64,000 bases of DNA from Burkholderia sp. 8Y (GTDB lineage: Bacteria; Pseudomonadota; Gammaproteobacteria; Burkholderiales; Burkholderiaceae): positions 1,648,314-1,712,313 of the forward strand of contig NZ_LR733519.1 of the NCBI RefSeq assembly GCF_902506145.1, written 5' to 3'. The position numbers and the translations under genes are program-made. Each line of letters starts with the position of its first letter. Position 1 is the first letter of the stretch. Below, one piece after another: positions 6,481 to 36,374 of the stretch. Under the pieces are notes generated by a model that saw only the letters and a list, made by a program, of their open reading frames with translations, had not been told where the DNA came from and ran no database searches.

Positions 6481-6676
6481 AGCTCCCGTCGCACGACCGT
6501 TCACGCGGCTCGTGCACGCCTCTTTCTGTCGCCCGACGAGTGCGCCGAACACTCCACATCGCGCCTCTATTCCCTCTCCTCGCAGAAATATTCTCCCCGC
6601 CGGGCGCGGAACAAATGCGCCGCGCCCGTTGTTTTCGTAGCGAAGGCAGCCGCAACGAACGCAAACGGAGACAGTC

Positions 6677-10176: not shown

Positions 10177-10182
10177 CGAACC

Positions 10183-11568: not shown

Positions 11569-11590
11569 CTCGATACCGGGAGACCGCCGC

Positions 11591-12931: not shown

Positions 12932-13516
12932 TCAGAAAGCGCGCCCGTCGAACAACGCCGCCACGAACGCCGCGTCCGGCAGACCGCTCACCACCCGCAC
13001 CTCGCCTTCGTGCCACCACGCGCACACGCCCTCTGTGCCCGCCGCGCCCGGCGGCACATCGCCTTCGCCGGACGTCTCCGAAAGCGCGATCAAACCCGCG
13101 TCGAAATCGGCGAGACGCGCGTCCGGCAAGAGCGTCGAGAGCGCCAGTTCGCGGCATCGCGCGAACCAGCCGCCGGCGCGCGGCAGCCAGCCGGCGCAGG
13201 CATCGGCGGAAAGGGGCGCGGCGATCGTCAGCGGAAAATGACGGCCCGCGCGATCGACGCTCGGCATCAGCACGCCCGCCCACACCGCGCCGCCGACGAC
13301 CCCGCCGCCCAGCGCGAAGCACCAGAGCGGCGCGTTCAGATACGCATCGAGCCAGGCGGAACCGAGCGCGTCGCGGCTCGCGAGCAGGCCCGCTTGCAGC
13401 ATGACATCCCACGGCCCGACGAACGATGCCGGCAGCCGCCGCATCACGAAATCGCCGTTGCTGCGCACTTTGCCGAAGCATCCGGCCGCGCCGGGGGCGC
13501 CGGGTGCCCGCCTCAC
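12932..13516 (-). CDS. tagF: T6SS-associated protein TagF
   Basis: 194 aa. Residues ~10-100 carry TagF-family hallmarks: GCFGKVRSNGDFVMRRLP at the N-terminus, PLWCFALGGGV, WAGVLMPSVDRAGRHFPLTI, then a variable C-terminal part. TagF is a negative post-translational regulator of T6SS. The frame is open much further upstream but that part lies inside tssM. The GTG at 13516 overlaps the tssM stop (GTGA) and starts the family domain, so it is preferred. It is the last gene of the - arm and converges on the phosphatase gene. Confidence 0.9.
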   Translation of the reverse strand: MRRAPGAPGAAGCFGKVRSNGDFVMRRLPASFVGPWDVMLQAGLLASRDALGSAWLDAYLNAPLWCFALGGGVVGGAVWAGVLMPSVDRAGRHFPLTIAAPLSADACAGWLPRAGGWFARCRELALSTLLPDARLADFDAGLIALSETSGEGDVPPGAAGTEGVCAWWHEGEVRVVSGLPDAAFVAALFDGRAF

Positions 13517-16971: not shown

Positions 16972-17000
16972 CGATGTCTCCTGATTTGCGGGTGCGGCCA

Positions 17001-18368: not shown

Positions 18369-19723
18369 GGGCGGATCGCCCAGAATTCCAGTTCGAGGCC
18401 GGGGAAGTCGCCCGCGACGTGCAGCGCGACACCGGCCGAACCGGCGAACTGCTTCCACAGGTCGCTGCCGCGGTCCAGTTCGAAATACGTGAAGCCCGCA
18501 TGAAAGGGCAACTGGCGCGGGGCGACCGGCAATGCGCGCAAGCCGATGCCCGGCAGTTGCAGATTGACGAGATCGCGGATCCGCTCCACGGGACCGAGCT
18601 TCGCTTGCTGCGCGAAGCCGTTGAGCAGCGCGGCGGGCGCGAGATCGGCCTTGACCGCGAGCACGAAGTTCGCTGTCCGAAACAGATCGCGATCGGGCAC
18701 GATGGCCACGCGCAGTCCGTACTTGCGCTCCTCCAGCGCGATGGGCACCGCATGCGGGTCCATCACGGCGCTGAGCGCGGCGCGCAGTGCATCGACGAGC
18801 GGCGTGAACACGGCATCGAGCCGCTCGTGCCGGTAGACCGGAAACGGCGCGGGGCGCTTGCCCGGCGCGCTGAAGGTCGCGAGTTCGCCCGCCAGTTGCA
18901 GCGCGTGCTGATGCAGGTCATGCGGATGCAGACCGGTCGTCGACGCGAGCGCCGCGAAAAGCGGCTCGGCGCGGTTGAGCACTTGCAGCAGCAGGAAGTC
19001 CGCGATTTCGGCGGCGCCTGTCGCGGCGGGCTGCGCGAGGCGCGCGGCGAGCGCATCGGCGCGCTGGTGCATCAGGCCGACGAGTTCATCGACGAACGCG
19101 CACAGGCGGCGCGACACGCGGTAGTCGAGGCACGGCGGCACGTAGGCTGCATCGAGTACGATGCTGTTGTCCGCGCGGCGCTCGACGATGCGCGCGACGC
19201 CGAGCGCGCTGTGCGCGTGCGCCACGTCCTGTTCGAATGCGAGGCGCAGTTGCAGCTTGCCGACCTGCACGAGCGCGGCGCCCGTCGCGCCTTCGTTGCT
19301 GTCCTGCACTTCCGTTTCCGCGATGCGATGCCGCGCGAAGCCCTCGCGCCCGGCTCCGGCTCCGGCCACGGGCTCGCCGCCGAAGGTCGCCTCGGGCACG
19401 CCCTGACGCGCGATCGGCAGCGCCAGCACGACGGTGAGATCGCGTGCGTCATCGGGCACGGCGAGCGGCAGCGGCAGGTCGTCGTCGGCGGGCAGGCGAA
19501 ACGGCGTGCCGTCGGGCAGCACGCCCGCGCAGTGCGTGAGCACGATACGGCCGAGCTTGAGCTGCCCGGCATCGACGGCAAGCTCCGAGAAACCGTACGC
19601 GTAAGGACGCAGCGCCGCGCAGCGCGCGTCGAGCTGGGCGCGCACATAGCGGTCGTGCTGTTGCAGATGCTGCGGCTGAAGCAGCATGCCTTCGGACCAG
19701 ATCACCTTGTGGTTGGCGGACAT
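18365..19723 (-). CDS. tssK: T6SS baseplate subunit TssK
   Basis: 452 aa, normal length. The N-terminus MSANHKVIWSEGMLLQPQHL is the conserved TssK start, followed by QHDRYV and PYAYGFSEL. TssK trimers connect the baseplate wedges to the TssL/TssM membrane complex. The frame is open far upstream of 19723 but that part overlaps the FHA gene in another frame. It starts 11 bases after the FHA stop and overlaps tssL by four bases, so the genes are co-transcribed. Confidence 0.96.
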   Translation of the reverse strand: MSANHKVIWSEGMLLQPQHLQQHDRYVRAQLDARCAALRPYAYGFSELAVDAGQLKLGRIVLTHCAGVLPDGTPFRLPADDDLPLPLAVPDDARDLTVVLALPIARQGVPEATFGGEPVAGAGAGREGFARHRIAETEVQDSNEGATGAALVQVGKLQLRLAFEQDVAHAHSALGVARIVERRADNSIVLDAAYVPPCLDYRVSRRLCAFVDELVGLMHQRADALAARLAQPAATGAAEIADFLLLQVLNRAEPLFAALASTTGLHPHDLHQHALQLAGELATFSAPGKRPAPFPVYRHERLDAVFTPLVDALRAALSAVMDPHAVPIALEERKYGLRVAIVPDRDLFRTANFVLAVKADLAPAALLNGFAQQAKLGPVERIRDLVNLQLPGIGLRALPVAPRQLPFHAGFTYFELDRGSDLWKQFAGSAGVALHVAGDFPGLELEFWAIRP

Positions 19724-19734
19724 CGTCGATCTCG

Positions 19735-22143: not shown

Positions 22144-22179
22144 GGCGTCTCCTGCCTGTGCGTGTTGAAGCGGCTGCGC

Positions 22180-24186
22180 TCATCGGGAACCGTCGTCGGC
22201 CTCGCGCGGGTCGGCAGGCGCATCGGGCGATGCGCTCGCCGCGCCCGCCGCCGCGCCCGCGCCGCCGCAGTTGATCTGCACCGTCGCGCCGTCGATCGTG
22301 ATCGGCCCCGCCGCATTGATCGCGATGCCGGAGGGCCCGAGCACGATCGTGCTGCCGCCCGCCTTGAGCGTGAGCGTCGCGCCCGCTTCGATAGTCACGT
22401 TCGCACCGCCCTTGATGTCGACGTTAACACCCACCCCCAACGCAAAATTCCCTGCCGTTTTCATTTGTGTATCGCCGCCGACATCCAGCGAGCACTTGCC
22501 GCCGATACGCCCGCTGTGACTGCCCTTCACCGCATCGCTGCGATTGCCGCCGCAGCGCGCGAAGTCGTGGCTTTCGACAATCACATGCCGCTCATTGCCG
22601 ATGCGCGCGAGCGCGTCGTGCCCGACCCACGTCTCCATGTCGCGCTCGGCGTGAAAGAACATTTGTTCGTTATCCTTCGTATCGTCGAAGCGCATTTCGT
22701 TGAAGCCGTTGCCGCCCTTGGTCGAATTGCTTTTGATGGTGGTGCGCGCCATTTTCGACGGAAGCGCGTAGGGCGTCGTCTGCGCGGCGTTGTAGACGCT
22801 GCCGATGACGAGCGGCTGATCCGGGTCGCCCTCGATGAAATGCACGAGCACTTCCTGACCGATGCGCGGCAGAAAAAACGCGCCATAGCTCTTGCCGGCC
22901 CACGGCTGCGCCACGCGCACCCAGCAGCGTTGCAGCGAATCGCGCGACGCCTCGGTGCCGAACTGCTCCCAGTGAAACTGCACCTTGATGCGGCCGTACT
23001 TGTCCGTATGAATTTCTTCCCCGGCCGGACCGACGACGCGTGCCGTTTGCGGTCCCGCGACCGTCGCGCGGCGCGTGATGCGCTCGGGCCGAAAACCCGC
23101 ATCGCGCGGCAACGCACGGAACGCGCAGTCGAAAACGTCGGCGGCAGCCGCGTTGTCCAGCGTAGAAATATAGTCGTCCGAATTAATCGCGTAATCCGCC
23201 GCGACGATCAGATGCTCGCCATTGTGCTGCGCAAGCGGATGGTCGGCCAGCCGGATGAGCCCGCCCGGCCAGATGCCTCGCACCGTGGCGCGGCCACTCA
23301 CGCAGACATTGGCTGCCTGATGCGCTTCCGCGTGCACGCGGGCATGGCGCTCGGCGTCCTCGGCGCGCGTGTAGCCGACGGCGTGCTCCTGCATCGTGTA
23401 GCGCGCGGCATCGAACGGTTCGCTGCGTCTCGCGCGCGCAAAGAGCCCTTGCTGCTCGCTCTGCGACGGCTTCTCGAAGTCGTAGTCGTTCACTTCGGCG
23501 ATACCCGTCTGCACTTGCGCGCCTGCATGCCACGCGTAAATCCATTCGTGCTCGCGCGGCGCGGTCTTCGCCGGACGAAACGGCAGCGCGCCGTAGTGCG
23601 GAATCGCATCGTGGACATGCGGCGAGTCCGTGAGAATCAGCGTGTGCTTGCCGCCGCGATGCTGCACGTAGTAATAGATGCCCTCGCGCTCCGCCAGCCG
23701 GCTCACGAAATCGAAGTCTGTTTCGCGGTACTGCGCGCAATGTTCGAGGCTCGGATACGAGGCCGAACACCGGTTCTCGAAGTCGATGTGATAGTCCGAC
23801 AGCACCTGCGCGATGATGTCCGGTGGCGTCATCTTATGAAAGAAGCGGCAGTGCGATGCGCGCGTGAGGAGCCACAGGCGCGGGCGCACCGTCGCCCGAA
23901 AAAGCGCGGGACGGTTGGGCTTTGTGCCCGCGGGCCGCGCCAGTTCGAACGCGGTGACGATGCCATTGAATTCGCGCGTGCCGCCGCCGGGAATCTCGAT
24001 GGACAACGAGAAGTCCTGGCCGAGCACTTTCGCGATATCGGCATTGGAGTCCTCCGCGAGCAGTTCGACGTCCCATTGCGCGAGGCGGCCGAGGGCTTCA
24101 TGGCCGCGCATGCGGTAGAACACGAGCGCGTCGGCGCCGAGCGCGGTGGTTACACGGGCAATGCGGTGAGTGTCGGTGAGCGTCAT
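22180..24186 (-). CDS. vgrG: T6SS spike protein VgrG
   Basis: 668 aa. Residues ~10-380 are the gp27-like base (GYTRAEDAERHARVHAEA, GLIRLADHP), followed by the gp5 OB-fold region (DKYGRIKVQFHWEQFG, CWVRVAQPWAGKSYGAFFLP, RIGQEVLVHFIEGDPDQPL). The C-terminal beta-helix needle carries short repeats (NVDIKGGANVTIEAGATLTL, GSTIVLGPSGIAINA). It ends in a short Gly/Ala/Pro tail with no added effector domain. It would form the puncturing tip with the PAAR-like protein encoded just upstream. No strong ribosome site; the start follows the upstream stop by 21 bases. Confidence 0.97.
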   Translation of the reverse strand: MTLTDTHRIARVTTALGADALVFYRMRGHEALGRLAQWDVELLAEDSNADIAKVLGQDFSLSIEIPGGGTREFNGIVTAFELARPAGTKPNRPALFRATVRPRLWLLTRASHCRFFHKMTPPDIIAQVLSDYHIDFENRCSASYPSLEHCAQYRETDFDFVSRLAEREGIYYYVQHRGGKHTLILTDSPHVHDAIPHYGALPFRPAKTAPREHEWIYAWHAGAQVQTGIAEVNDYDFEKPSQSEQQGLFARARRSEPFDAARYTMQEHAVGYTRAEDAERHARVHAEAHQAANVCVSGRATVRGIWPGGLIRLADHPLAQHNGEHLIVAADYAINSDDYISTLDNAAAADVFDCAFRALPRDAGFRPERITRRATVAGPQTARVVGPAGEEIHTDKYGRIKVQFHWEQFGTEASRDSLQRCWVRVAQPWAGKSYGAFFLPRIGQEVLVHFIEGDPDQPLVIGSVYNAAQTTPYALPSKMARTTIKSNSTKGGNGFNEMRFDDTKDNEQMFFHAERDMETWVGHDALARIGNERHVIVESHDFARCGGNRSDAVKGSHSGRIGGKCSLDVGGDTQMKTAGNFALGVGVNVDIKGGANVTIEAGATLTLKAGGSTIVLGPSGIAINAAGPITIDGATVQINCGGAGAAAGAASASPDAPADPREADDGSR

Positions 24187-24207
24187 CGGGGGTCTCGTCG
24201 AAAGGAG

Positions 24208-24597
24208 TCAGGGAAGCTCGGTCTTGCGCGTGGCGGGATCGGCCACCTTGACGACGCCGCCCCAGTTGCACGGGCACACCGACACGTTGTCGAGCGATGG
24301 CGCATTGCCGATCTGCACGGTGAGCGCGCCCGGCGTCCACGGTTGCGCGGTGGCGGGCACGCACGGCGCGGGCGTCGGCGTGCCGAACGCGGCGGCGGTC
24401 GCGGCCTGCACCGCCGGATTCGCGGGCGCGCTGCACATGCCGAACGGCATGATGTTCACAAGCGGAATGTGATCCATGATGGTCGCGGCGGGCGGCCCTT
24501 CGCACAGCACGCGGTTGGTCGGCAACACGACGAGCGTCGACGGCGCCATGCCGAACGAACACTGAAGCGTCGCGCCCATGCTGACTTGTTGCGGCAT
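24208..24597 (-). CDS. PAAR-like (DUF4280) T6SS tip protein
   Basis: 129 aa. It has the pattern of DUF4280 PAAR-like proteins: MGATLQCSFGMAPSTLVVLP at the N-terminus, HIPLVNIMPFGMCSAPANPA in the middle, and C-P-C near the C-terminus. Conserved Cys residues may bind zinc at the spike apex. There is no C-terminal extension, so it looks like a bare tip rather than a fused effector. An AGGAG ribosome site precedes the ATG. It lies between clpV and vgrG in the main operon. Confidence 0.88.
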   Translation of the reverse strand: MPQQVSMGATLQCSFGMAPSTLVVLPTNRVLCEGPPAATIMDHIPLVNIMPFGMCSAPANPAVQAATAAAFGTPTPAPCVPATAQPWTPGALTVQIGNAPSLDNVSVCPCNWGGVVKVADPATRKTELP

Positions 24598-24615
24598 CGC
24601 AGGCTCCTTTTGGAT

Positions 24616-27261
24616 TCAGTCGAACGCGTAGGTCAGTTCGCCGTCGCACACGCCGATTTCTACTTTCGCGACGCTGCGGCCATCGGCGAGACGGCTCAGG
24701 AACTCGCTGCTCACGCGCGGCAGGACCGTGTTCGTCAGAATGGCGTCGATCATGCGCCCGCCGCTCTGGAGCTCGGTGCAACGGCGCGCGATCTCGCGCG
24801 TGACCGCATCGTCATACACGAAGCCGACGCGATACCGCGCCTCGACACGCCGCCCGATGCGCGCGAGTTGCAGACCGATGATCGCGTCGAGCATCGCGTC
24901 GTCGAGCGGGTAGTAGGGAATCACCGTGACGCGGCCAAGCAGCGCGGGCGGGAACACGTCGACGAGCGGCGCGCGCAGCGCCTGTGCGATCTCGTCGGGC
25001 GGCGGCGCGTCCTGCCGTCCGACGCAAAGCTGCGTGATGATTTCGGTGCCCACGTTCGTGGTGAGCAGGATCAGCGTGTTGCTGAAGTCGATTTCGCGGC
25101 CCTCGCCGTCTTCCATGCGGCCCTTGTCGAAGACCTGAAAGAAGAGTTTGTGCACATCCGGATGCGCTTTTTCGAACTCGTCGAGCAAGACGACGCTGTA
25201 CGGACGCCGCCGCACCGCCTCGGTGAGCACGCCGCCCTCGCCGTATCCGACATAGCCGGGCGGCGAACCCTTGAGCAGCGAAACGGTGTGCGCTTCCTGA
25301 TACTCGCTCATGTTCACGGTGATGACGTTCTGCTCGCCGCCATAAAGCGATTCCGCGAGCGCGAGCGCCGTTTCCGTCTTGCCGACGCCCGACGTGCCCG
25401 CGAGCATGAACACGCCGACCGGCTTCCCCGGATTGTCGAGTCCGGCGCGGGACGTCTGCACACGGCGCGCGATCATCTGCATCGCGTGTTGCTGGCCGAC
25501 GATGCGCCGATTCAGCGCGGACGCGAGATCGAGCACGCTTCTGACTTCGTCGCGCACCATGCGGCCAACGGGGATGCCGGTCCAGTCCTGCACGACCGAC
25601 GCGATGGCGTTCGCATCGACGGCGGGCAGCACGAGCGGCGCTTCGCCCTGCTCCGCGACGAGCTGGCTCGTGAGTTCACGCAGACCCGCAAGCGCGTGCG
25701 CCGACGAATCGCCGCTTTCGCCGCATTCGCCAATTTCGGCACGCGCCGCGAGAATCCGCGAAACGAGCGCGCGTTCCGCTTCCCAGCGCGCGGTCAGCGT
25801 ACACAGGCGCGCTTCTTCGCTTGCGAGCCGCGCGGCGACATCGGCGCTGCGTTCCTGCGACTGTTCGGCCGACGTGATGCCGAGCGCCGCCTCGCGCGCC
25901 GCGATTTCGCTTTCCAGCCGCCACGCTTCGATGCGGCGCTTCGCATCGTCGATGGCGGGCGGCAGCGCCTGCTGACTCACCGCGACGCGCGCGCAGGCGG
26001 TATCGAGCAGGCTCACGGCCTTGTCGGGCAACTGCCGCGCGGGAATGTAGCGATGCGACAGCTTCACGGCCGCCTCCAGCGCCTCGTCGAGCACCTGCAC
26101 GCCGTGATGCTGCTCCATCTTGCGCGCGAGGCCGCGCATCATCGCGATCGCGTTGGCCTCCGACGGCTCCGGCACCTTCACCGCCTGAAAGCGCCGCGTG
26201 AGCGCCGGGTCTTTCTCGATGTGCTTCTTGTATTCCACCCACGTCGTCGCGGCGATCGTGCGCAGTGTGCCGCGAGCGAGCGCGGGCTTGAGCAGATTCG
26301 CCGCGTCGCCGGTGCCGGCCGCGCCGCCCGCGCCCACGAGCGTATGCGCTTCGTCGATGAAAAGAATCACGGGCACAGCCGACGCCTGAACTTCGTCGAT
26401 CACTTGCCGCAGCCGGCTCTCGAACTCGCCCTTGACGCTCGCGCCCGCTTGCAGCAGGCCGATATCGAGCGTGCGCACGACGGCGTTGCCAAGCGCGGGC
26501 GGCACCTCCCCCGCGACGATGCGTTGCGCGAAGCCTTCCACGACCGCCGTTTTGCCGACGCCCGCTTCGCCGGTCAGGATCGGGTTGTTCTGCCGACGGC
26601 GCATCAAAATATCGATGACCTGTCGGATTTCCGCGTCGCGTCCGACGATCGGGTCGAGCTTGCCTTCGCGCGCCTGCGCGGTCAGATCGACGGTGTAGCG
26701 GTCGAGCGCCTCGTGCGCGGTGAGCGGCGCGGCGGTATCGGCTGTATCGGCGGCATGGACGTGCGCCGCCTTTTCGATGCCCGCTTCGGGCGAACCGTCG
26801 AGCAGCGTGTGAAAGCGCGCGGAAAGCGCGTCGAAGCCGATCTTCTCGAACTCGCGGGAGAGCGCGAAGAGCGCGTTGCGCAGGTTCGGCGTGCGCAACA
26901 TGCCGATGACGAGGTGCCCGGTCCGCACGGTCGTCGCGCCGAACATCAGCGAGCCGAACACCCAGCCGCGCTCGACGGCTTCATCGACCTGCGCGGAAAT
27001 ATCTGACACCGAGCTCGCGCCGCGCGGCAGACGGTCGAGCGCGGCGGTCAGGTCGCGGGCCACGCGCGTTTCATCCAGTTCGAACGCGCGCACGAGCCGT
27101 TGCAGGTCGGAATCGGGCGCGAGCAGGATCTGATGAACCCAGTGCGCCAGTTCGACATACGGATTGCCGCGCAGCTTGCAGAACGCGGTGCCGTTTTCGA
27201 TTGCGCGATAGGCGACCGGATGCAGTTTGCCGAACAGGGCTTGACGGCTGATTTCAGTCAT
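24616..27261 (-). CDS. tssH: T6SS ATPase TssH (ClpV)
   Basis: 881 aa, normal ClpV length. The N-domain starts FGKLHPVAYRAIENGTAFCK. The first AAA+ domain has Walker A GEAGVGKTAVVEG and Walker B VILFIDEAHTLVG. A coiled-coil middle domain follows. The second AAA+ domain has GTSGVGKTETALALAESLYG and VVLLDEFEKAH. ClpV disassembles contracted TssB/TssC sheaths for reuse. The ATG at 27261 overlaps the tssG stop by eight bases; the frame is open 11 codons further, but the family sequence begins here. Confidence 0.97.
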   Translation of the reverse strand: MTEISRQALFGKLHPVAYRAIENGTAFCKLRGNPYVELAHWVHQILLAPDSDLQRLVRAFELDETRVARDLTAALDRLPRGASSVSDISAQVDEAVERGWVFGSLMFGATTVRTGHLVIGMLRTPNLRNALFALSREFEKIGFDALSARFHTLLDGSPEAGIEKAAHVHAADTADTAAPLTAHEALDRYTVDLTAQAREGKLDPIVGRDAEIRQVIDILMRRRQNNPILTGEAGVGKTAVVEGFAQRIVAGEVPPALGNAVVRTLDIGLLQAGASVKGEFESRLRQVIDEVQASAVPVILFIDEAHTLVGAGGAAGTGDAANLLKPALARGTLRTIAATTWVEYKKHIEKDPALTRRFQAVKVPEPSEANAIAMMRGLARKMEQHHGVQVLDEALEAAVKLSHRYIPARQLPDKAVSLLDTACARVAVSQQALPPAIDDAKRRIEAWRLESEIAAREAALGITSAEQSQERSADVAARLASEEARLCTLTARWEAERALVSRILAARAEIGECGESGDSSAHALAGLRELTSQLVAEQGEAPLVLPAVDANAIASVVQDWTGIPVGRMVRDEVRSVLDLASALNRRIVGQQHAMQMIARRVQTSRAGLDNPGKPVGVFMLAGTSGVGKTETALALAESLYGGEQNVITVNMSEYQEAHTVSLLKGSPPGYVGYGEGGVLTEAVRRRPYSVVLLDEFEKAHPDVHKLFFQVFDKGRMEDGEGREIDFSNTLILLTTNVGTEIITQLCVGRQDAPPPDEIAQALRAPLVDVFPPALLGRVTVIPYYPLDDAMLDAIIGLQLARIGRRVEARYRVGFVYDDAVTREIARRCTELQSGGRMIDAILTNTVLPRVSSEFLSRLADGRSVAKVEIGVCDGELTYAFD

Positions 27262-28288
27262 GGAGCGTCTCCTCGATGTGGCTCGTGCGCGCATCCCGTG
27301 CGATCACGACCCGATGGTTGTCATGGACCGGCGTGCCGCTCGTGAGCCACGTCGTCCAGCCCAGGCGCGCGCCGCCCTTCGGCTGGCTCGCGAGGCGAAG
27401 CGCGGGCACGTCGTCGCGTTTCAGATGCAGCGCGAGCTCCCAGTCGAGCGGATCGCGCACGTAGCTGCGCACCCAGTCGCGCAGCTTGCGAAGGCTCGCG
27501 CCGCCCGGCAGGAAGCGCACGAAATCGGCGTAGCCGAGCGGCCCGATCACGATGCGGAACTTGTGCTGGCAGTCCCATACGCGCGTGCCGGCCACTGCCG
27601 AGACGCCGAGCCGCGCGTCGCCGAGCCGCGTAAGCGAATCGGCGGGCAGCGCGATCCAGTTCCCGCGCCACGGCTCGATGGCGACCGGCACGCCGAAGAA
27701 GCGCGCGAGAATCAGCCTCAGCCCGCCCGCGTGACGCGTCGGCGCGGCGAGCACGCCCGCGAAATGGCGGCGCGCGTGGTCCGGCACGGCGTCGCGGTTG
27801 TGCATGCCCGGCGCGCCGAAACCGAAGAAACTGCCGACGTAATCCGCGATTCGGTCTTCCTGCGGACGGTCCGCGCTCACGACCGGCTGCGCATCGGCCC
27901 AGGCGCGGTAGAAGAGCGAGAGCATCCGGTGATGGAAGACATCGAGAAAGCGCGCGAGCGTCGGGTCGTTCGCGTTGCGCGCGCGTTCGCGGACATACGC
28001 GGTGAGATGCGTCGGCAGCGGTCCGTTCGGGCCGAGCAGTCCGAGGAAATTCACCGCGAGGCGCCCAGGCTTGTCGCCTTCGCCTGCCGTGTAGCCGCCG
28101 AGCGTCGTCGGATGAAAGATCAGCTCCGGCTCCTGCGAGAGACGCACGGCGTCGTCGCCAGGGCTCGCCGAACGGCCGAGGCGCGCTCGCTCGGCGTGCA
28201 TCTGTTCGATGAGACGCAGCGCCTGAAAGAAGTCGAAGCGGCGGGCGTCGCGCGTGAGCACGGCGTCGAGATTCAGAGTGCCGGGCAT
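27254..28288 (-). CDS. tssG: T6SS baseplate subunit TssG
   Basis: 344 aa. Conserved TssG features: DFFQALRLIEQMHA near the start, VNFLGLLGPNGPLPTHLT, HHRMLSLFYRAW, GFGAPGMHNRDAVPDHAR, and YADFVRFLPGG toward the end. TssG pairs with TssF in the baseplate wedge. The open frame runs far upstream inside tssF; the ATG at 28288 starts the family domain and overlaps the tssF 3' end by 16 bases. Confidence 0.95.
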   Translation of the reverse strand: MPGTLNLDAVLTRDARRFDFFQALRLIEQMHAERARLGRSASPGDDAVRLSQEPELIFHPTTLGGYTAGEGDKPGRLAVNFLGLLGPNGPLPTHLTAYVRERARNANDPTLARFLDVFHHRMLSLFYRAWADAQPVVSADRPQEDRIADYVGSFFGFGAPGMHNRDAVPDHARRHFAGVLAAPTRHAGGLRLILARFFGVPVAIEPWRGNWIALPADSLTRLGDARLGVSAVAGTRVWDCQHKFRIVIGPLGYADFVRFLPGGASLRKLRDWVRSYVRDPLDWELALHLKRDDVPALRLASQPKGGARLGWTTWLTSGTPVHDNHRVVIARDARTSHIEETLHD

Positions 28289-30153
28289 CGTCCGCTCCTG
28301 TGCGGCCAGCGCATGATGGAACCGCGTGCAAGCGTCGCGACGGCGGTTTCCGCGAACGAATTGATCGACACGTACTGCGCCATGAACTGCGCGAGCACCG
28401 CGCCGAGCAGGAACGCGCTCGCGCCTTCGAACGCGGCGTCGTCGAAATGGAGCGTGACGGCGAGGCCGCGGCCAAACACGATCGGCCCCGGCGACGGCAG
28501 GCGGCGCACGACCGGCTCCGACGACACCGAACGCAATCCCTCGATTTGCCGCCGCGCCGCCGCGTCGTCGGCCGGGCAGTAGAGCGCCAGCATCTCGCGC
28601 AGCGCCCGCGCGCCCTGCTCGGCGTCGTGATCGACCAGCGACGCATAGTTGAGCGACAGATGATCGAGCAGCCGCCACGCCGCCGGGCCATGCGCGAAGG
28701 ACGGCAATGGCCGGCTGGGACCGGCGACGCACCGCACCGCCGTCACGGGCGCTTCGGCGTCGAGCGTGAAGTCGGTCGTGCCCGCGCCGAGCGGCATCGA
28801 CAGCGGCAGGTCGCGGTTCGTGCACCACGCGGTGATGCCGAGCTGGCGCAAGTCGCCGTCGAGCGGCGCGCTCGCTGCATCGACGAGCGCGATGAACGCC
28901 TCGCTGCCGAGATAACCGCTGCGCGCGCCGTCGCGCTGCTGGCGCACCGACGTGCGCCGTGCCTCGCGGCGCAGCTGATAGAACGCGCCGCCCTCGCCCG
29001 GCGCGTCCAGATCCTTCGCGCAGTAGAACGGTCTGAACTGCCGTTGCGCGTCTGCGCCCGAGCCGTAGCCGGTCACGGTGTCGATCTGGTGAATCTCGTA
29101 GTCCATTGGCCGCGTGCGATCGACGACAACGTGATATTCGAAGTCCGTATGCGTGAGCGCGATGCGGTCGGTACGGCGGCGGAACAGGTTGATCGCGGGC
29201 GTGCAGTTGAGCGCGAAATGCGAGGCATCGACCGCGCGTTCCAGCGACGCATCGGTTTGATCGAGCAGCACGACGATCTCGACTTCCCGCTCGCGGCAAT
29301 GGCGCAACGCGTCGCGCAAACCGGCTATCTCGACGAACAGAAAGCGCGGCGCGAAGGCGAAATACTCCTGGAGCAGCCGGTAGCCATCGAACGATTGCTG
29401 GCTGACGGGCAGAAGCGCCTCGTCTTCCGCGAACCCGAGCGGGCAGAGCGCGGTCTTCGGCAGGACGGCGAGCGTCGTATCGGCTGCGCCGTTCTTGCCC
29501 GGCTGCACGACGGCGACGCCCGCGCAACTCGCAAGCAGCCGCTCGTGGATGCGCAGCGCGAGGCCGTCCGCGCCACGCACGTGCAGCGCGAGACGGTCGA
29601 GCGCGAGACGGTCGAAGCCGAGCGCGCCGGTCGCGCGCAGCCGCAGACGCAGCGCGGCTTTGGCGGCGGTCTTCGCGCCCGCCGAACCGCCCTGCGTCAC
29701 GAACTTCGCCTGCGCGAGTTCGACCGGCCAGAGCGTGACCGCGTGCGCGGTGCGGAACTCGCAGCGCGTCGAGGCCGACGCGTCGAGCATGCTTCGCAGC
29801 ACGGTATGACGCGGCACCACGACGCCATCGGCACTTGCGGCGAGCTGCGGGTTCGCGTGATCCGCCATCAACTGGACGACGGCCATCGAAGGCGTCGGCG
29901 CCAGATAGTGCGGATACGTCATCTCCAGCAGATGCTGCGTGAAGCGCGGAAACTCGGCATCGAGCTTCATCTGCACGCGCGCCGCGAGGAAGCTGAAGCC
30001 TTCGAGCAGCCGCTCGACATACGGGTCCGCGCATTCGAGACCGTCGAGCGCGAGCCGCCCCGCGACCTTCGGAAACGCGGCGGCAAACTCGCCGCCCATC
30101 TCGCGCAGATGCCGCAACTCCTGGCTGTAGTACTTGAGAAACGCCGGGTTCAT
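28273..30153 (-). CDS. tssF: T6SS baseplate subunit TssF
   Basis: 626 aa, normal length. The N-terminus MNPAFLKYYSQELRHLREMG followed by EFAAAFPKVAGRL is the TssF hallmark, with DPYVERLLEGFSFLAARVQ and FPRFTQHLLEMTYPHYLAP after it. The C-terminal part has VSINSFAETAV. TssF is the larger wedge protein of the baseplate. Its ATG at 30153 overlaps the tssE stop (ATGA). Confidence 0.97.
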   Translation of the reverse strand: MNPAFLKYYSQELRHLREMGGEFAAAFPKVAGRLALDGLECADPYVERLLEGFSFLAARVQMKLDAEFPRFTQHLLEMTYPHYLAPTPSMAVVQLMADHANPQLAASADGVVVPRHTVLRSMLDASASTRCEFRTAHAVTLWPVELAQAKFVTQGGSAGAKTAAKAALRLRLRATGALGFDRLALDRLALHVRGADGLALRIHERLLASCAGVAVVQPGKNGAADTTLAVLPKTALCPLGFAEDEALLPVSQQSFDGYRLLQEYFAFAPRFLFVEIAGLRDALRHCREREVEIVVLLDQTDASLERAVDASHFALNCTPAINLFRRRTDRIALTHTDFEYHVVVDRTRPMDYEIHQIDTVTGYGSGADAQRQFRPFYCAKDLDAPGEGGAFYQLRREARRTSVRQQRDGARSGYLGSEAFIALVDAASAPLDGDLRQLGITAWCTNRDLPLSMPLGAGTTDFTLDAEAPVTAVRCVAGPSRPLPSFAHGPAAWRLLDHLSLNYASLVDHDAEQGARALREMLALYCPADDAAARRQIEGLRSVSSEPVVRRLPSPGPIVFGRGLAVTLHFDDAAFEGASAFLLGAVLAQFMAQYVSINSFAETAVATLARGSIMRWPHRSGRCPAL

Positions 30154-30698
30154 GCCTGATTCTCCATGCTCTGTCCGCTTTCGACGTTGCGCGTGGGCGC
30201 GGCGTCCGCGATACGCACTTCGCCCGCTTCGAGGTCCAGCTCGGTGCGCAGATGCAGCCGTTCGGGGTACGGCCGCGACCACATCTGCGCTTCGATCTCG
30301 AAGCAGATCACATGGCCGCGCGCCGTGTTCTTCGCGTCCTCGATAACGCTCACGCGCACCGATTCGCGTGCGAGCCTCGGCTCGAAGGCCCACAGCGCAT
30401 CGCGAATCAGGCGCTCGACCGCGCCCGGCGTGAGCGCCGCGACGTTGCATCCCGCGAGGTCCGGCAGCCCGTAGTTGAGCACCGATGTCGCCACGTGCGG
30501 AAAACCCGCCGTGTCGATGCAAGCCGGGAGACCGCTCGCATTCAGCAGCCAGCCGATGTCGCGCCGCACGCTCTCGCGCAGCGCCCGCGACGACATCACG
30601 CGACGCTCGCGCGGTTCGGTCCGCGCGTGCGGGTCGTGATCGGTGAGGCGGTCGAGCAGCGATGGTTGCAGGCGGTCGCGTGTGGTCGGATCGGACAT
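30150..30698 (-). CDS. tssE: T6SS baseplate subunit TssE (gp25-like)
   Basis: 182 aa. It resembles phage gp25 lysozyme-related baseplate proteins: LQPSLLDRLTD near the N-terminus, LRESVRRDIGWLLNA, VLNYGLPDLAG and FEPRLARESVRVSV. TssE links the baseplate to the first sheath disk. It lies between tssC (50-base gap) and tssF (4-base overlap). Confidence 0.93.
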   Translation of the reverse strand: MSDPTTRDRLQPSLLDRLTDHDPHARTEPRERRVMSSRALRESVRRDIGWLLNASGLPACIDTAGFPHVATSVLNYGLPDLAGCNVAALTPGAVERLIRDALWAFEPRLARESVRVSVIEDAKNTARGHVICFEIEAQMWSRPYPERLHLRTELDLEAGEVRIADAAPTRNVESGQSMENQA

Positions 30699-30748
30699 GT
30701 GCGGGTTCCTCTCGGTGCGTTTCGCGGATTGCGCGGTCTTTCCCGGTC

Positions 30749-32257
30749 TTACGCGGTCTTCGCCGTCGGCAGCTTGGAAACGAGCCGCAGCGAGACCGTC
30801 AACCCTTCGAGCTGGTAATGCGGGCGCAGGAAGAACTTCGACGTGTAGTAGCCCGGATTGCCCTCCACTTCCTCGACGACGACCTGCGCATCCGCCAGCG
30901 GCTTGCGCGCCTTCGTATCGTCGGAGGAGTGCGCGGGATCGCCATCGACGTATTGCAGAATCCAGTTCTGCAGCCAACGCTCCATGTCGTCGCGTTCGCG
31001 GAACGAGCCGAGCTTGTCGCGCACGATGCACTTCAGGTAATGCGCAAAGCGCGAGCACGCGAAGAGATACGGCAGGCGCGCGGCGAGATTGGCGTTCGCA
31101 GTGGCGTCGGCGTCTTCGTATTCAGCGGGCTTGTGCAGCGATTGCGCGCCGATGAACGCCGCGAAGTCCGAGTTCTTCTTATGCACGAGCGGCATGAAAC
31201 CGCTTTTCGCGAGTTCCGCCTCGCGCCGGTCGCTGATCGCGATCTCGGTGGGGCACTTCATGTCGACGCCGCCATCGTCGGTGGGGAACGCATGGACCGG
31301 CAGCCCTTCCACCGCGCCGCCCGATTCCACGCCGCGAATGCGCGAGCACCAGCCGTACATCTTGAACGAGCGCGTGATGTTGGCGGCCATCGCATACGAT
31401 GCGTTCGCCCACACGTAATGGCTGCTGTTCGCGCCAGCGGTGTCTTCCTCGAAGTCGAACGCTTCGACCGGGTCCGTCTTCGCGCCATACGGCGCACGCG
31501 CGAGAAAGCGCGGCATGGCAAGACCGATATAGCGCGAATCTTCGGAATCGCGCAGCGAGCGCCACGCGGCATGCTCGGGCGTCTGGAAAATCTTGGTCAG
31601 GTCACGCGGATTGGCAAGCTCCTGCCACGAATCCATGAGCAGCGCGGCCGGGTCCGCACCCGCGATGAACGGCGCGTGCGCCGCCGCCGCGATCTTCGCC
31701 ATCTGCGTGAGCAGGTCCACGTCCGGGCCGCTATGGTCGAAGTAGTAGTCCGCGACCAGCGCGCCATACGGCTCGCCGCCAAACTGGCCGTACTCTTCCT
31801 CGTAGAGTTTCTTGAAGAGAGGGCTCTGATCCCACGCGACGCCGCGATACTTCTTAAGCGTCTTGTGCAGCTCGGGCTTCGACATGTTCAGCACGCGAAT
31901 CTTGAGCGATTCGTCCGTTTCCGTGCTGTTCACGAGGTAATGCAGGCCGCGCCATGCGCTCTCCACTTTCTGGAACGGCTCGCTATGCAGGATCAAATTG
32001 ATCTGCGCTGTGAGCGCCTGATCGATCTGCGCGATGAGTGCCTCGATGGTCGCGAGCACGTCGCCGGAGATGACTTGCGTATCGCGCAATGCCTGTTCCG
32101 CGAGCGTGCGAACCGCGTTCTCGACGGCTTCGCGCGCCCGGTCGGACTTCGGCTTGAACTCCTTTTGCAGAAGCGCCGAGAAGTCGCTGATTTCGGGCGC
32201 GGCCTCTGCGTATGCAACATTCGTGGCGGACTGCGGGTGGATGCTGAGATCGTTCAT
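30749..32257 (-). CDS. tssC: T6SS contractile sheath large subunit TssC
   Basis: 502 aa, normal length. Conserved segments are SEPFQKVESAWRGLHYLV, YGALVADYYFDH, FIAGADPAALLMDSW, and a C-terminal YYTSKFFLRPHYQLEGLTVS. With TssB it polymerises into the sheath that contracts to fire the Hcp tube. The ATG at 32257 lies 4 bases after the tssB stop. The frame is open 18 codons upstream inside tssB, which is not used. Confidence 0.97.
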   Translation of the reverse strand: MNDLSIHPQSATNVAYAEAAPEISDFSALLQKEFKPKSDRAREAVENAVRTLAEQALRDTQVISGDVLATIEALIAQIDQALTAQINLILHSEPFQKVESAWRGLHYLVNSTETDESLKIRVLNMSKPELHKTLKKYRGVAWDQSPLFKKLYEEEYGQFGGEPYGALVADYYFDHSGPDVDLLTQMAKIAAAAHAPFIAGADPAALLMDSWQELANPRDLTKIFQTPEHAAWRSLRDSEDSRYIGLAMPRFLARAPYGAKTDPVEAFDFEEDTAGANSSHYVWANASYAMAANITRSFKMYGWCSRIRGVESGGAVEGLPVHAFPTDDGGVDMKCPTEIAISDRREAELAKSGFMPLVHKKNSDFAAFIGAQSLHKPAEYEDADATANANLAARLPYLFACSRFAHYLKCIVRDKLGSFRERDDMERWLQNWILQYVDGDPAHSSDDTKARKPLADAQVVVEEVEGNPGYYTSKFFLRPHYQLEGLTVSLRLVSKLPTAKTA

Positions 32258-32261
32258 CGCG

Positions 32262-32804
32262 TCATGCTCCGTGGTTGGGGGCTTCGGTCTGGGATGCAAT
32301 GTTTTGCGCACCCGGGCGCGGCTCGGCGGACAACGCGCGCATCAGTCCGGGTTCTTCCAGCAGACGCGCGATGAGTGCTTCGGCGCCGGTCTTGCCGTCC
32401 ATGTATGTGAGCAGGTTCGCCAACTGCGTGCGGGCCTCCAGCAACTGACGCAGCGGCTCGACCTTGCGCGCGATGGCGGCGGGCGTGAAGTCGTCCATCG
32501 ACTCGAAAGTCAGATCGACGGCCACATTGCCCTCGCCCGTCAGCGTGTTGGGCACCTGAACCGCCACGCGCGGCTTGACCGATCTCAGGCGTTCGTCGAA
32601 GTTGTCCACGTCGATTTCCAGGAACTTGCGATCCGCGACGCTTGGCAGCGCCTCGGCCGGCTGGCCGGAGAGATCCGCGAGCACGCCCATGACGAAGGGC
32701 AGGTTCACTTTCTTCTCTGAGCCATAGACTTCGACGTCGTATTCGATCTGCACACGCGGCGCACGATTGCGCGCGATGAACTTCTGACTGCTTTCCTTAG
32801 CCAT
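32262..32804 (-). CDS. tssB: T6SS contractile sheath small subunit TssB
   Basis: 180 aa. Typical TssB sequence: KESSQKFIARNRAPRVQIEY, LPFVMGVLADLSG, FLEIDVDNFDERLRSVKPRV, FESMDDFTPAAIARKVEPL. An AAGGA ribosome site precedes the ATG. The 42-base gap after tssA is short enough for one transcript. Confidence 0.97.
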   Translation of the reverse strand: MAKESSQKFIARNRAPRVQIEYDVEVYGSEKKVNLPFVMGVLADLSGQPAEALPSVADRKFLEIDVDNFDERLRSVKPRVAVQVPNTLTGEGNVAVDLTFESMDDFTPAAIARKVEPLRQLLEARTQLANLLTYMDGKTGAEALIARLLEEPGLMRALSAEPRPGAQNIASQTEAPNHGA

Positions 32805-32846
32805 GACTCTATTTCCTTCGGATGTCTAATTAGATGGGATGATGAC

Positions 32847-33899
32847 TCATTCGACGCCGCCCAGATGCCGGAACTGATGCGCGCCGTCCGGGGCCACGTC
32901 CTCGATGATTTCGATGAAACTTTTGCCGACGAGCCGCCGCGCACGCTGCAACAGCACCGGCAGCGGGCTCGATGGCTCGTACTCCGCGTAGTAGGCGCAG
33001 ATGGCATCGAGCGTGTCGATCACATCGCTCGCGTTCGCAATGCGCGGGGCCATCGCGATTCCGGGCATGGCAGGCTCACGCGCCGCCGATCCGGAATGGC
33101 CGCCCTCTTCACTGCTCACGGTCTCCATCGCACCGCCCCGTTGCATCATCTGTGGATCGAGCGCCTCGACGCGGGCCGCGACGAACTCGTCGATGCGAGC
33201 GAGGGGCCTTGCCAGCGCGCCGAAATCCAGCGCCCGCGCCGGCCCCACGCGCTCGGTCAGCAGCGACTCGATCCTCGCGAGCGACGACCTCGCCGACGCC
33301 AGCGCATCGCATGTGGCCCGCGCTGCTTCGACGCCGGTCAGCGCGAACGCTGCATCGATGGTCGCCATGCTCGGCATCTCGCTGCCGTCCGCGAGCGGCA
33401 ACTCGCCTGCCATCACTTCGAGATCGCGCAGCGCGAACCCACGATGACCACGGGGCGCGACGAACGGCACGTCGCGCAATGCGCTCGCGAGCCCCGCGCC
33501 ATCGAGGAGTCCCGAGAGCGCATTGACTCGCGCGGTCGGGTCGCCATCGGCATCGTCGAGTTGCGGGTGGACGCTCGGCCAGTGCAATTCGAGCAGCCCG
33601 TCGATCAGCGCGAGGCCGCGCGCCAGTCCTTCGAAACCCTCACGTGCGGCGCTCGCCCGCGTGTAGTGCACCGCCACCCGCACGTCACGCGTGCGCTGCA
33701 AGAGCGCCGTCGAGAGCGAGCGCGCGAGCGCCCAGTCGGGCGGCGTCGCAGCAATCACGACGCCGCCGTACTGCGCATCCGGCTTACCCGCCACCGCCTC
33801 TTCGAGCGCACGGAAGTCGGCGCTGTACTCCTCGTCGTCGCCGCTCGGCGCGTGCGGCGTGATGTCGGTCAGCCAGCCGGCGATATCGGCGCGATTCAT
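32847..33899 (-). CDS. tssA: T6SS assembly protein TssA (ImpA N-terminal domain)
   Basis: 350 aa. The N-terminal ~130 residues match the ImpA domain (DIAGWLTDI, AQYGGVVIAATPPDWALARS, ALIDGLLELHWPSVHPQLDD). The C-terminal ~60 residues carry a conserved motif (DVIDTLDAICAYYAEYEPSS, PVLLQRARRLVGKSF), the short-TssA arrangement. TssA guides tube and sheath polymerisation. It lies 63 bases downstream of hcp. Confidence 0.93.
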   Translation of the reverse strand: MNRADIAGWLTDITPHAPSGDDEEYSADFRALEEAVAGKPDAQYGGVVIAATPPDWALARSLSTALLQRTRDVRVAVHYTRASAAREGFEGLARGLALIDGLLELHWPSVHPQLDDADGDPTARVNALSGLLDGAGLASALRDVPFVAPRGHRGFALRDLEVMAGELPLADGSEMPSMATIDAAFALTGVEAARATCDALASARSSLARIESLLTERVGPARALDFGALARPLARIDEFVAARVEALDPQMMQRGGAMETVSSEEGGHSGSAAREPAMPGIAMAPRIANASDVIDTLDAICAYYAEYEPSSPLPVLLQRARRLVGKSFIEIIEDVAPDGAHQFRHLGGVE

Positions 33900-33962: not shown

Positions 33963-34448
33963 TCACTCCGACTTGTTTTCGGGGACGTTCCACTTGCCGG
34001 TCACGACCCCGCCCTTCTTCGCGCCGTTGTTGTCCTGCGGCTGATATTCGACCTTGAACTTGGCGAAGTTCAGCGAGACGTTGTCCATCGCCTGATCGCC
34101 GCCGCCCATGCTGACGGAGTAATTGCTGATCAGCACTTCGTTGAGCGTGACCTTCATGTACTCGACAGGCGCTTTTCCGCCCGCCTTGCGCATGGTCAGC
34201 ACGACCTCGGGCATGTGCTTGCCTTGACAGCACGCTTGCGCGATCGTCGGCGAGCTCTTGTCGAGATACTTGCTGAACGTGAGGTCCTGCACCGCTGCGG
34301 TTCCGGTACCGCCGCCCGTGCCGCTATGCGTGGACCCGTACTGCGCGCAGCCCCACGACCAGCTCATGACTTCGATTTCTTCCGCATGAGCCGAATCCTG
34401 CGATTCGCCCTTGATGTCGCCCAGCTTGATGAAAATGTCTGCTGCCAT
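33963..34448 (-). CDS. hcp: T6SS inner tube protein Hcp
   Basis: 161 aa, normal Hcp length. Conserved features: FIKLGDIKGESQD, IEVMSWSWGCAQ, FSKYLDKSSPTIAQACCQGK and a beta-rich C-terminus. Hexameric rings stack to form the expelled tube and may carry effectors in their lumen. A GGAG site lies 6 bases before the ATG. It is the first core gene of the - arm. The 147-base spacer to the 54-aa gene upstream should hold its promoter; no sigma-54 pair with correct spacing was found. Confidence 0.97.
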   Translation of the reverse strand: MAADIFIKLGDIKGESQDSAHAEEIEVMSWSWGCAQYGSTHSGTGGGTGTAAVQDLTFSKYLDKSSPTIAQACCQGKHMPEVVLTMRKAGGKAPVEYMKVTLNEVLISNYSVSMGGGDQAMDNVSLNFAKFKVEYQPQDNNGAKKGGVVTGKWNVPENKSE

Positions 34449-34595: not shown

Positions 34596-34760
34596 TCAAT
34601 CGGCGCGCGGGCGAATGGCGGCGGCCTCGCCGATGACTTGCATGAAGAGTCCCTGCATCGTTGCGCGACAGACTATGCTAGGAAAACGTGCGCGTGCGAC
34701 ACACGCGTTTCGCATGACCGTTCTGTCCGCTTGCCGGGCCTGGTCGAGGAGGGTCGCCAT
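34596..34760 (-). CDS. Small uncharacterised protein (54 aa) divergent from ECF sigma gene
   Basis: The ATG at 34760 has a strong AGGAG ribosome site 7 bases upstream. The product starts MATLLDQARQADRTVMRNAC and ends VIGEAAAIRPRAD: basic, partly helical, no signal peptide, not recognised. The in-frame open region continues upstream of 34760, but this start has the ribosome site. Upstream lies a promoter-like GGAAT-N17-TGTT that mirrors the one in front of the sigma gene, so it may belong to the same regulon. It reads toward hcp in the same direction. Confidence 0.55.
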   Translation of the reverse strand: MATLLDQARQADRTVMRNACVARARFPSIVCRATMQGLFMQVIGEAAAIRPRAD

Positions 34761-34817: not shown

Positions 34818-34843
34818 AACAGCCGGACTCGACGGCTTATTCC
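34818..34843 (-). promoter_or_regulatory. ECF-type promoter (leftward) for the 54-aa gene
   Basis: On the - strand GGAATAAGCCG (GGAAT at 34843-34839) is followed after 17 bases by TGTT (34821-34818). The GGAAT-type -35 and GTT-containing -10 with 16-17 base spacing resemble ECF sigma promoters of the GGAAC...GTT type. The -35 half is an exact inverted copy of that of the opposite promoter. It lies ~60 bases upstream of the 54-aa gene start. Confidence 0.5.
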
Positions 34844-34877
34844 GCACAAAAAATCGAAAAAAGCGCGGAATAAGCCG
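34833..34877. repeat. Perfect 13-bp inverted repeat between sigma gene and 54-aa gene
   Basis: CGGCTTATTCCGC (34833-34845) and its exact reverse complement GCGGAATAAGCCG (34865-34877) flank a 19-base A-rich loop. There is no T-run on either side, so it does not look like an intrinsic terminator. Each arm carries GGAATAAGCCG pointing outward. The best reading is a pair of back-to-back -35 regions, or an operator, shared by the divergent genes. Confidence 0.85.
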
Positions 34878-34891
34878 GCCGCTCGGGTGTT
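34867..34891 (+). promoter_or_regulatory. ECF-type promoter (rightward) for the sigma factor gene
   Basis: GGAAT (34867-34871) followed after 16 bases by TGTT (34888-34891), about 38 bases upstream of the sigma-factor ATG at 34929. ECF sigma genes usually autoregulate from this kind of promoter. The element is the mirror image of the leftward one, which strengthens both. Confidence 0.55.
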
Positions 34892-34928
34892 ATCAATCAT
34901 GAGCGCGCCGATACCAGGAGCTGCCCCG

Positions 34929-35471
34929 ATGAACGACGACGACTTGCCCGCCGTCCTGCCGACACTGCTGCCACGGCTCTGGCGCTTCGCGCTGCGGCTG
35001 ACGCAGAACCAGCACGACGCCGAAGATCTCGTCCAGCGCGCGTGCGTGCGGGCACTGGAGCGGCGCAATCAGTTGCAGCCGGGCACGTCGACGCTGAGCT
35101 GGCTTTTTTCGATCGTCCATTCGACGTGGATGAACGAACTGCGCTCTCGCTCCATCCGCAGCCGAGGCAGCATGGACTGGCAGGACGAAGAAATCGAGTC
35201 GCTTGCCGATCCCGGCGGGCGTAACCCGGAAGTCGATCTGATGCATCGGCAGGTATTCAACGCCGTCGAAGCCTTGCCGGAAGCGCAGCGCGTCGTGATG
35301 GTGCTGGTGGCGATCGAAGGCTTGAGTTATCGCGAGGCCGCCGACGTGCTGGATGTCCCGATCGGCACGGTCATGAGCCGGCTCTCGCGCGCACGGCTCA
35401 CGATCGGGCAGCAGTTCGGCGTGCAGGCTCCGGCATCGGCGCAGAAAGGACAAAAGGGAGAATCCTTATGA
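34929..35471 (+). CDS. ECF-family RNA polymerase sigma factor
   Basis: 180 aa. Region 2 (residues ~15-75: RFALRLTQNQHDAEDLVQRA, STLSWLFSIVHSTWMNELRS) and region 4 (residues ~110-165: LPEAQRVVMVLVAIEGLSYR, EAADVLDVPIGTVMSRLSRA) are complete, with the region 4 helix-turn-helix. Regions 1.1 and 3 are absent, as in ECF factors. The ATG at 34929 is chosen for its AGGAG site 8 bases upstream; in-frame starts at 34899 and 34887 are less likely. The 3' end overlaps the next gene (ATGA), the classic sigma/anti-sigma coupling. Confidence 0.95.
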   Translation: MNDDDLPAVLPTLLPRLWRFALRLTQNQHDAEDLVQRACVRALERRNQLQPGTSTLSWLFSIVHSTWMNELRSRSIRSRGSMDWQDEEIESLADPGGRNPEVDLMHRQVFNAVEALPEAQRVVMVLVAIEGLSYREAADVLDVPIGTVMSRLSRARLTIGQQFGVQAPASAQKGQKGESL

Positions 35472-36352
35472 TGAATGTCGACGACACACTGCTGATGGCC
35501 TATGTCGACGGGGAACTGGCGCCCGAGCAACGCGCGGAAGTGGAAGCGGCTATCGCGCATTCCGACGATCTCGCAGGCCGGGTGGCTGCGCTTCAGGCGT
35601 CGGTGCTTCCGTATCGCGCGGCCTATGAACGCCGTCCGGTGCCGCCGGTGCCGGAGAGCCTCACGCGGCGCATCGACGAACTCGTCAGCGTGACGACCGC
35701 GCAAAAGCGCCGCCCCGCGCGGGCGAGCGGCCGTTTTCCGATGCAATGGGCAGCCGCCGCGTTCGTCGCGGGCGCGATCTGCTCGGGCGTGCTGACGGGT
35801 TATCTCGGCGGCATGAACCCGCTCAAGCCGGGCGTCGATCCGTGGGTGCGCAGCGTCGCGGACTATCAGGTGCTGTATGGGCGCGATACCGTTGCGAACA
35901 TTCGCGAAGACAAGGTCAGCACGGAGCAGGTTCTCTCCGACATCCATCAGCGCGATGGCATGCCGGTCAATGTGCCGGACTTGCGGCAGGCGGGCCTGAA
36001 GTTCAAGCGCGTGCAGCGGCTGAATTATCACGACCGCCCGCTCATTCAGATGGTCTATCTGCCTGAACGCGGCGATCCTGTCGCGCTTTGCGTGATCGAA
36101 GATGCGAAAGGCGATGCGCCGGTGAGCACGCAGCAGGTCGGCGAAATGAAGACCGTGACGTGGCGCGCGAACCGGCTCGCGTATGTGCTGCTCGCGAGGG
36201 ACACGTCGCTCGATTTGCAGAAGCTCGGGCAAGGCATCGCGAGCGGCAAGGTGGCGGAGTTGTACGGTCAGTCTGCGGAGGAAGCGCCGCGTGCGAGCCG
36301 CGCGGCGCCGTGCAACGATGCTGCGCAGAGCTGTCGCGGCACGACCACATGA
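35468..36352 (+). CDS. Transmembrane anti-sigma factor
   Basis: 294 aa. The N-terminal ~60 residues resemble anti-sigma domains of the RsiW kind (LLMAYVDGELAPEQRAEVEA), followed by one transmembrane helix at about residues 95-115 and a ~180-residue periplasmic domain. The zinc-binding HxxxCxxC motif of ZAS anti-sigma factors is not present in the cytoplasmic part. The periplasmic tail ends with a two-Cys segment (PCNDAAQSC). The sigma stop overlaps its start, with GGGAG upstream. It should hold the sigma factor at the membrane until an envelope signal leads to release. Confidence 0.9.
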   Translation: MMNVDDTLLMAYVDGELAPEQRAEVEAAIAHSDDLAGRVAALQASVLPYRAAYERRPVPPVPESLTRRIDELVSVTTAQKRRPARASGRFPMQWAAAAFVAGAICSGVLTGYLGGMNPLKPGVDPWVRSVADYQVLYGRDTVANIREDKVSTEQVLSDIHQRDGMPVNVPDLRQAGLKFKRVQRLNYHDRPLIQMVYLPERGDPVALCVIEDAKGDAPVSTQQVGEMKTVTWRANRLAYVLLARDTSLDLQKLGQGIASGKVAELYGQSAEEAPRASRAAPCNDAAQSCRGTTT

Positions 36353-36374
36353 TGCACACGGCGCATGGCGCGTT

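Follow-up and report, generated by a model that had tools for sequence, protein, structure and literature searches.

Divergent ECF-type promoter elements as a candidate link between an ECF26-like sigma factor and a type VI secretion cluster in Burkholderia sp. 8Y

Introduction

In a stretch of 64,000 nucleotides of the genome of Burkholderia sp. 8Y (contig NZ_LR733519.1, positions 1,648,314 to 1,712,313; hereafter, the window), a perfect inverted repeat separates the gene of an ECF sigma factor from a small open reading frame (ORF) on the opposite strand, with the hcp gene of a type VI secretion system (T6SS) further left. This arrangement raises the question of whether the repeat is an operator or a pair of promoters and, in the second case, which genes the leftward promoter serves.

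Results

The repeat occupies positions 34833..34877. Its arms (34833-34845 and 34865-34877) are 13 bp long, are 100% complementary and enclose an A-rich loop of 19 nt, as the initial annotation of this DNA had described, and they carry two back-to-back -35 boxes. The rightward ECF-type promoter element, GGAATA-N15-TGTT at 34867..34891 (+), faces the sigma/anti-sigma operon and begins 62 bp ahead of the sigma ATG, in the window as well as in 12 relatives of the same genus. The leftward element, GGAATA-N16-TGTT at 34818..34843 (-), faces the small ORF and hcp. Gaps of 16 and 17 nt between GGAAT and TGTT had been reported for the right (34867-34891, +) and left (34843-34818, -) sites, and both were found; counted from GGAATA, as is done here, the same spacings are 15 and 16. 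The ECF gene, the 54-aa ORF with AGGAG ahead of its ATG, and hcp, on which the earlier description also relied, are all present.

Both elements were retained in 12 out of 12 same-genus genomes whose sigma factor orthologue is 87-90% identical. With the addition of four further named loci (Paraburkholderia panacisoli, Caballeronia concitans, Burkholderia turbans and Paraburkholderia translucens) and two plasmid loci (Caballeronia sp. Lep1P3 and C. zhejiangensis), the GGAATA-N15/16-TGTT pair was present at 19 of 19 close-orthologue loci, the window included. The lack of the GGAAT arms in relatives, which had been named in advance as the finding that would speak against promoters, was encountered at none of these loci. 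The left element reads GGAATAA..TGTTTTC at all 19; its GCGGAATAAG and TGTTTTCGGGTCAC are invariant in the alignment of the window with the 12 relatives, and the A-rich stretch separating the -35 boxes is kept in 13 aligned loci. What did not extend to the relatives is the perfect symmetry, which is particular to this strain: the common arm measures 13 bp in the window and 6-8 bp, corresponding to the -35 core, in 13 relatives. Given these shorter arms, we regard the repeat as two back-to-back -35 boxes whose neighbouring bases match by chance in the window strain. A different explanation would be that the repeat is an operator, and that a dimeric repressor or activator bound to the 13-bp arms controls both divergent genes. 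The perfection of the repeat in the window and its site between divergent genes would suit an operator, but symmetric arms were not kept across orthologues, whereas GGAATA, TGTT and their fixed spacing were kept in all of them, and no gene of the dimeric-regulator type was seen beside the repeat. We consider an operator very improbable. The conservation argues instead for the earlier proposal of two divergent ECF-type promoters, one putatively serving the sigma operon and the other directed leftward.

A scoring matrix, trained solely on sites from more distant loci, was applied to the window and to a null set of 200 Markov windows. The four best places in the window were 34867(+), 34843(-), 6573(-) and 6608(+), with scores of 31.3, 22.7, 19.4 and 16.4, respectively. 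The best score per null window had a mean of 9.5 and a maximum of 26.9, none reaching 30, so the right site exceeds all 200 null windows, and the left site lies above the null mean and below the null maximum. Ten of the 200 null windows reach 16, the level of the sites at 6573(-) and 6608(+), which lie beyond the far end of the T6SS cluster; the case for these two sites is therefore made by their conservation and not by their score. Exact motif matches around the sigma gene numbered 23 in a close group (11 loci, 220 kb) and 86 in a distant group (52 loci, 53-71% identity, 1.02 Mb). The reversed pattern gave no match in either group, and 39 letter-permuted controls gave on average 0.1 (close) and 0.9 (distant) matches, with maxima of 2 and 6. 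Spacings of 15 and 16 dominate, with a minor group at 20-21, and no motif match was found at 17 mainly rhizobial loci (44-51% identity). Back-to-back pairs within 150 bp were counted 22 times among 70 loci, 11 of these being the close orthologues; in Pandoraea, such a pair, 29 bp apart, lies beside a different ECF gene (L124, 7017/7047; L126, 7967/7997).

The distant loci also delimit the finding. No exact element was present at 15 of the 52, an element within 320 bp ahead of the sigma gene was present at only 9, and 27 had elements but no T6SS gene in the stretch. Judging by these counts, neither T6SS control nor autoregulation is a general property of the wider sigma family. At several distant loci (L088, L092, L093, L100, L103, L104 and L128) an element lies ahead of a universal-stress-protein-like ORF, confirmed by Pfam Usp in L092 only, and related sigma factors may therefore have other targets.

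The sigma factor gene (34929..35471, +; ATG at 34929) encodes 180 aa with the Pfam domains sigma70_r2 and sigma70_r4_2, and is overlapped by the gene of the anti-sigma factor (35468..36352, +; 294 aa). From its sequence features, the sigma factor appears to be ECF26-like. It has the sigma2 and sigma4 domains of this architecture, and GGAATA-N15/16-TGTT precedes its own operon at 19/19 loci, in line with a -35 GGAATA and a -10 GT. It shares 39% identity over 173 aa with the Sinorhizobium meliloti pSymA factor taken to be RpoE6, but paralogues in the same genome show a similar identity (36-43%). The traits of ECF43 factors (a changed DxxD in region 2.2, no anti-sigma factor and an adjoining kinase) were not found; region 2.2 reads DAEDLVQ and the kinase is about 23 kb away. 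The predicted anti-sigma factor matches Pfam zf-HC2, yet contains no cysteine before residue 105. Its structural model suggests a ChrR-like N-terminal domain and an RseB-like C-terminal domain, with a moderate structural match; a sequence search with the RseB-like domain found no PDB relative, and a putative membrane helix was assigned by visual inspection of the sequence. To the right of the anti-sigma gene (36375-39369, -) lie genes for an ankyrin-repeat protein, a di-domain cytochrome c and a PQQ-dependent alcohol dehydrogenase, on a side that is variable in relatives.

The small ORF (34596..34760, -; 54 aa) is an altered member of a family of 77-90-aa proteins, of which 27 homologues were found, the named sources being mostly Caballeronia, Paraburkholderia and Trinickia. 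At 13 of the 19 loci the ORF is intact and encodes 77-90 aa. Among these 13, which were judged intact by a sequence motif, a choice that favours conserved members, dN/dS was 0.23 (78 pairs), as compared to 1.59 (72 usable pairs) and 1.38 (77 usable pairs) in the shifted-frame controls. Judged by these substitutions, intact members of the family are under purifying selection. At the other six loci (window, Lep1P3 and four more) the ORF is altered, and the left promoter is retained at all six; this suggests that the promoter serves something beyond the small ORF. Conservation of the 54-aa frame, which the initial annotation had put forward as a check, thus holds for the intact family and fails in the window and five more loci, and it is unlikely that the 54-aa product, which had been proposed to belong to the regulon or to feed back on it, is the point of the arrangement. 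The ORF is a conserved accessory gene, changed in some strains including that of the window. In several relatives, a short hairpin with a T run lies just ahead of the hcp ribosome site (34449-34490, -, in the window), with stem letters that vary between species; such a hairpin could have an effect on the 5' leader of hcp.

It may be argued that the leftward promoter serves the small ORF, or a short RNA, and nothing else, hcp and the tss genes being transcribed from another promoter and the T6SS not being a target. The purifying selection on the protein family would fit this possibility, as would a terminator-like hairpin inside the ORF (34706-34690; 0.5 expected by chance) and the approximately 150 nt between the ORF and hcp in the window, which contain some conserved blocks in relatives. 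On the other hand, at the loci with an altered ORF the promoter has stayed the same, and no alternative site was found before hcp: a search for sigma-70-like promoters within 34300-35000 and one for sigma-54-like sites from 33413 to 37019, allowing up to 2 mismatches, were both negative. The related T6SS clusters described below also argue against it, and we regard this explanation as unlikely.

The gene hcp (33963..34448, -; Pfam T6SS_HCP, NCBIfam TssD) encodes the T6SS tube protein and is followed by the T6SS genes tssA to tssM (13513..33899, -), recognised by Pfam and gene order. The set consists of tssA, tssB, tssC, (tssE), tssF, tssG, clpV/tssH, vgrG, FHA/tagH, tssK, tssL and tssM. Pfam supports TssA, B, C, G, the ClpV-type AAA protein, VgrG, FHA, K, L and M; tssE and tssF were assigned by order and by similarity to the annotated Lep1P3. 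The core genes looked for (hcp, tssA-C, F, G, clpV, vgrG, K, L and M) are all there, no tssJ was seen in the cluster of the window, and the gene order matches the annotation of Lep1P3 and C. zhejiangensis.

Beyond the other end of the cluster, a one-letter variant of the element, GGAACA-N16-TGTTTTCG (6608..6633, +), lies ahead of a group of control genes (8402..12427, +; Pfam), which encode a FecR-domain protein (8402-9301), a Tll0287/DUF3365-HAMP protein (to 10176), a Ser/Thr kinase (10183-11568) and a PP2C phosphatase (to 12427) and whose order is identical in the annotations of Lep1P3 and C. zhejiangensis. The variant, GGAACA-N16-TGTTTTCGTAGCGAA, is common to the window and Lep1P3, and in both it has a divergent partner, GGAATA-N16-TGTT (6548..6573, - in the window), with no leftward gene assigned. 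Twelve far-end stretches were retrieved, two of which (L188 and L189) stop short of the site. In the 10 relatives whose contigs reach it, the element is present in the GGAATA form, and in every case a FecR-like ORF of about 295-310 aa comes after it (Pfam FecR verified in the window and in L178). We rejected the assignment of the gene ending at 10176 as PppA, since its Pfam match is Tll0287/DUF3365-HAMP and the phosphatase comes after the kinase. Between the far-end element and fecR (6677-8389, +), ORFs of 44 and 511 aa gave no Pfam family above the cutoff; hypothetical proteins corresponding to both are annotated in Lep1P3, and one corresponding to the 511-aa ORF in C. zhejiangensis.

The occurrence of the element was then compared among T6SS clusters. 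In seven out of seven related clusters (TssB 77-79% identical), which have a sigma gene of 64-67% identity at a distance of 23-25 kb, the element precedes tssA on the tssA strand. No match to the element or to the sigma gene was found in 20 out of 20 other T6SS clusters, within the retrieved stretches of 4.2-19.5 kb; these 20 were a choice among other TssB places, 19 of them coming from genomes with such a sigma factor elsewhere, the window's own genome being among these. As the element heads these T6SS genes in relatives and is absent from the other clusters examined, the sigma factor likely switches the T6SS on. Consistently, 20 of 37 same-genus genomes have this T6SS type (TssB at least 77%), and the sigma factor (at least 64%) is encoded in every one of these 20 and in 8 of the other 17 (Fisher p 0.0002, uncorrected for kinship). 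An influence of the leftward transcript on the T6SS, mentioned as an aside in the initial annotation, thus becomes, on this comparative evidence and that from both cluster ends, the probable main story.

These comparisons bear also on whether another ECF factor of the genome, rather than the adjacent one, reads the promoters through cross-talk within the group. Elements of this pattern do occur at a paralogous ECF locus of the genome, but the element tracks the local sigma gene: the T6SS clusters with that gene carry it, and it is missing from all 20 clusters in whose retrieved stretches the gene was not found, even though 19 of these lie in genomes that encode such a factor elsewhere. We consider cross-talk quite unlikely.

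In the genome of the window, the exact motif occurs at 11 places, as compared to 3 for the reversed pattern. Five are the pair at the studied locus, the 6573 site and the pair at the paralogous ECF locus; of the remaining six, four fall within ORFs or on the strand opposite them, one precedes msrP, and one is located some 240 bp ahead of a thiolase-like ORF. We therefore claim no wider regulon of this sigma factor, and the genome-wide search that had been suggested for further regulon genes did not extend it. At the paralogous locus (L059 5412-8298; G000:C5, about 918.4-921.3 kb), GGAATA-N15-TGTT points toward an ECF sigma gene accompanied by anti-sigma genes, and a second, divergent element about 430 bp off lies ahead of a catalase-domain protein (Pfam PF00199). 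The msrP site is an intergenic GGAATA-N16-TGTT just ahead of the gene (L061 6961-8011; G000:C2, about 2.573 Mb; NCBIfam MsrP, 496 bits), and similar sites occur in G005, G007, G009, G011, G012, G022 and G029. As G005 is without the studied sigma factor, another factor may read the msrP-type site. A further genome (G016) contains the motif at 68 places and the reversed pattern at 7, together with 22 matches to the sigma factor; both family and sites look expanded.

Discussion

We conclude, with a probability of about three in four, that the two divergent ECF-type elements let the released sigma factor turn on the hcp-tss genes to the left along with its own operon, and that the far-end element drives the control genes. 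The adjacent sigma factor would be the reader of the elements. Once released, it would read both back-to-back elements and activate its operon and the hcp-tss genes together, the leftward transcript presumably running through the small ORF into hcp. From 6608-6633, the far-end element would direct transcription of the FecR, sensor, kinase and phosphatase genes, so that weapon and control genes may form one regulon. Upstream of this, the anti-sigma factor may tether the sigma factor to the membrane and let it go when an envelope signal reaches the outer, RseB-like domain of the anti-sigma factor.

A broader interpretation, which we offer as speculative, is that a whole class of Burkholderiaceae T6SS has a dedicated ECF26-like sigma factor, which controls it from both ends, and that the RseB-like domain of the anti-sigma factor reads envelope damage. 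An injured cell would then turn on weapon and control genes together, in a transcriptional retaliation switch. The locus is a candidate on-switch for a T6SS class of Caballeronia and Paraburkholderia, including symbionts of plant-feeding bugs. If the cluster stays off until the anti-sigma factor is relieved, tests of T6SS genes in bug symbionts could miss it.

Several known systems can be compared with this locus. According to PMC6180224, the ECF26 consensus is -35 GGAATA and -10 GT, and the sigma gene is followed by that of an anti-sigma factor with an N-terminal anti-sigma domain and a C-terminal periplasmic domain; some members autoregulate, and the targets include sulfite oxidation genes and others. 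The same consensus and gene order are found in the window, as for S. meliloti RpoE1, RpoE3, RpoE4 and RpoE6, whereas its elements head a T6SS cluster and the -10 is TGTT instead of the CGTT of the S. meliloti pSymA sites. In contrast to the envelope-stress regulators RseA-RseB and MucA-MucB, the RseB-like domain of the model is part of the anti-sigma factor itself. In Paraburkholderia phymatum, of the same bacterial family, the T6SS-b is also under an alternative sigma factor, RpoN, as stated in PMC8356804; this is, however, a sigma-54 and not an ECF factor, and no sigma-54-like site was found near hcp in the window.

Among the matches listed, in open-access text, none links an ECF26 or anti-sigma-paired ECF factor to a T6SS; one paper contains both ECF26 and type VI secretion, and its T6SS passage concerns EcfK. 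EcfK of Xanthomonas citri (ECF43) is encoded in a T6SS region, activates T6SS genes and is phosphorylated by PknS, according to PMC13147305. The likeness consists in a T6SS-linked ECF factor and in a cluster that also encodes a Ser/Thr kinase and a phosphatase. The difference is that ECF43 factors have a changed DxxD and are kinase-activated, whereas the sigma factor of the window keeps DAED and is followed by an anti-sigma gene. ECF control of a T6SS is therefore known from EcfK; what appears to be new, among the matches listed, is an ECF26-like factor that is paired with an anti-sigma factor and accompanied by promoter elements on either side of a T6SS cluster. Since EcfK works via a kinase, an anti-sigma-gated T6SS, if true, would add a second way to wire this weapon.
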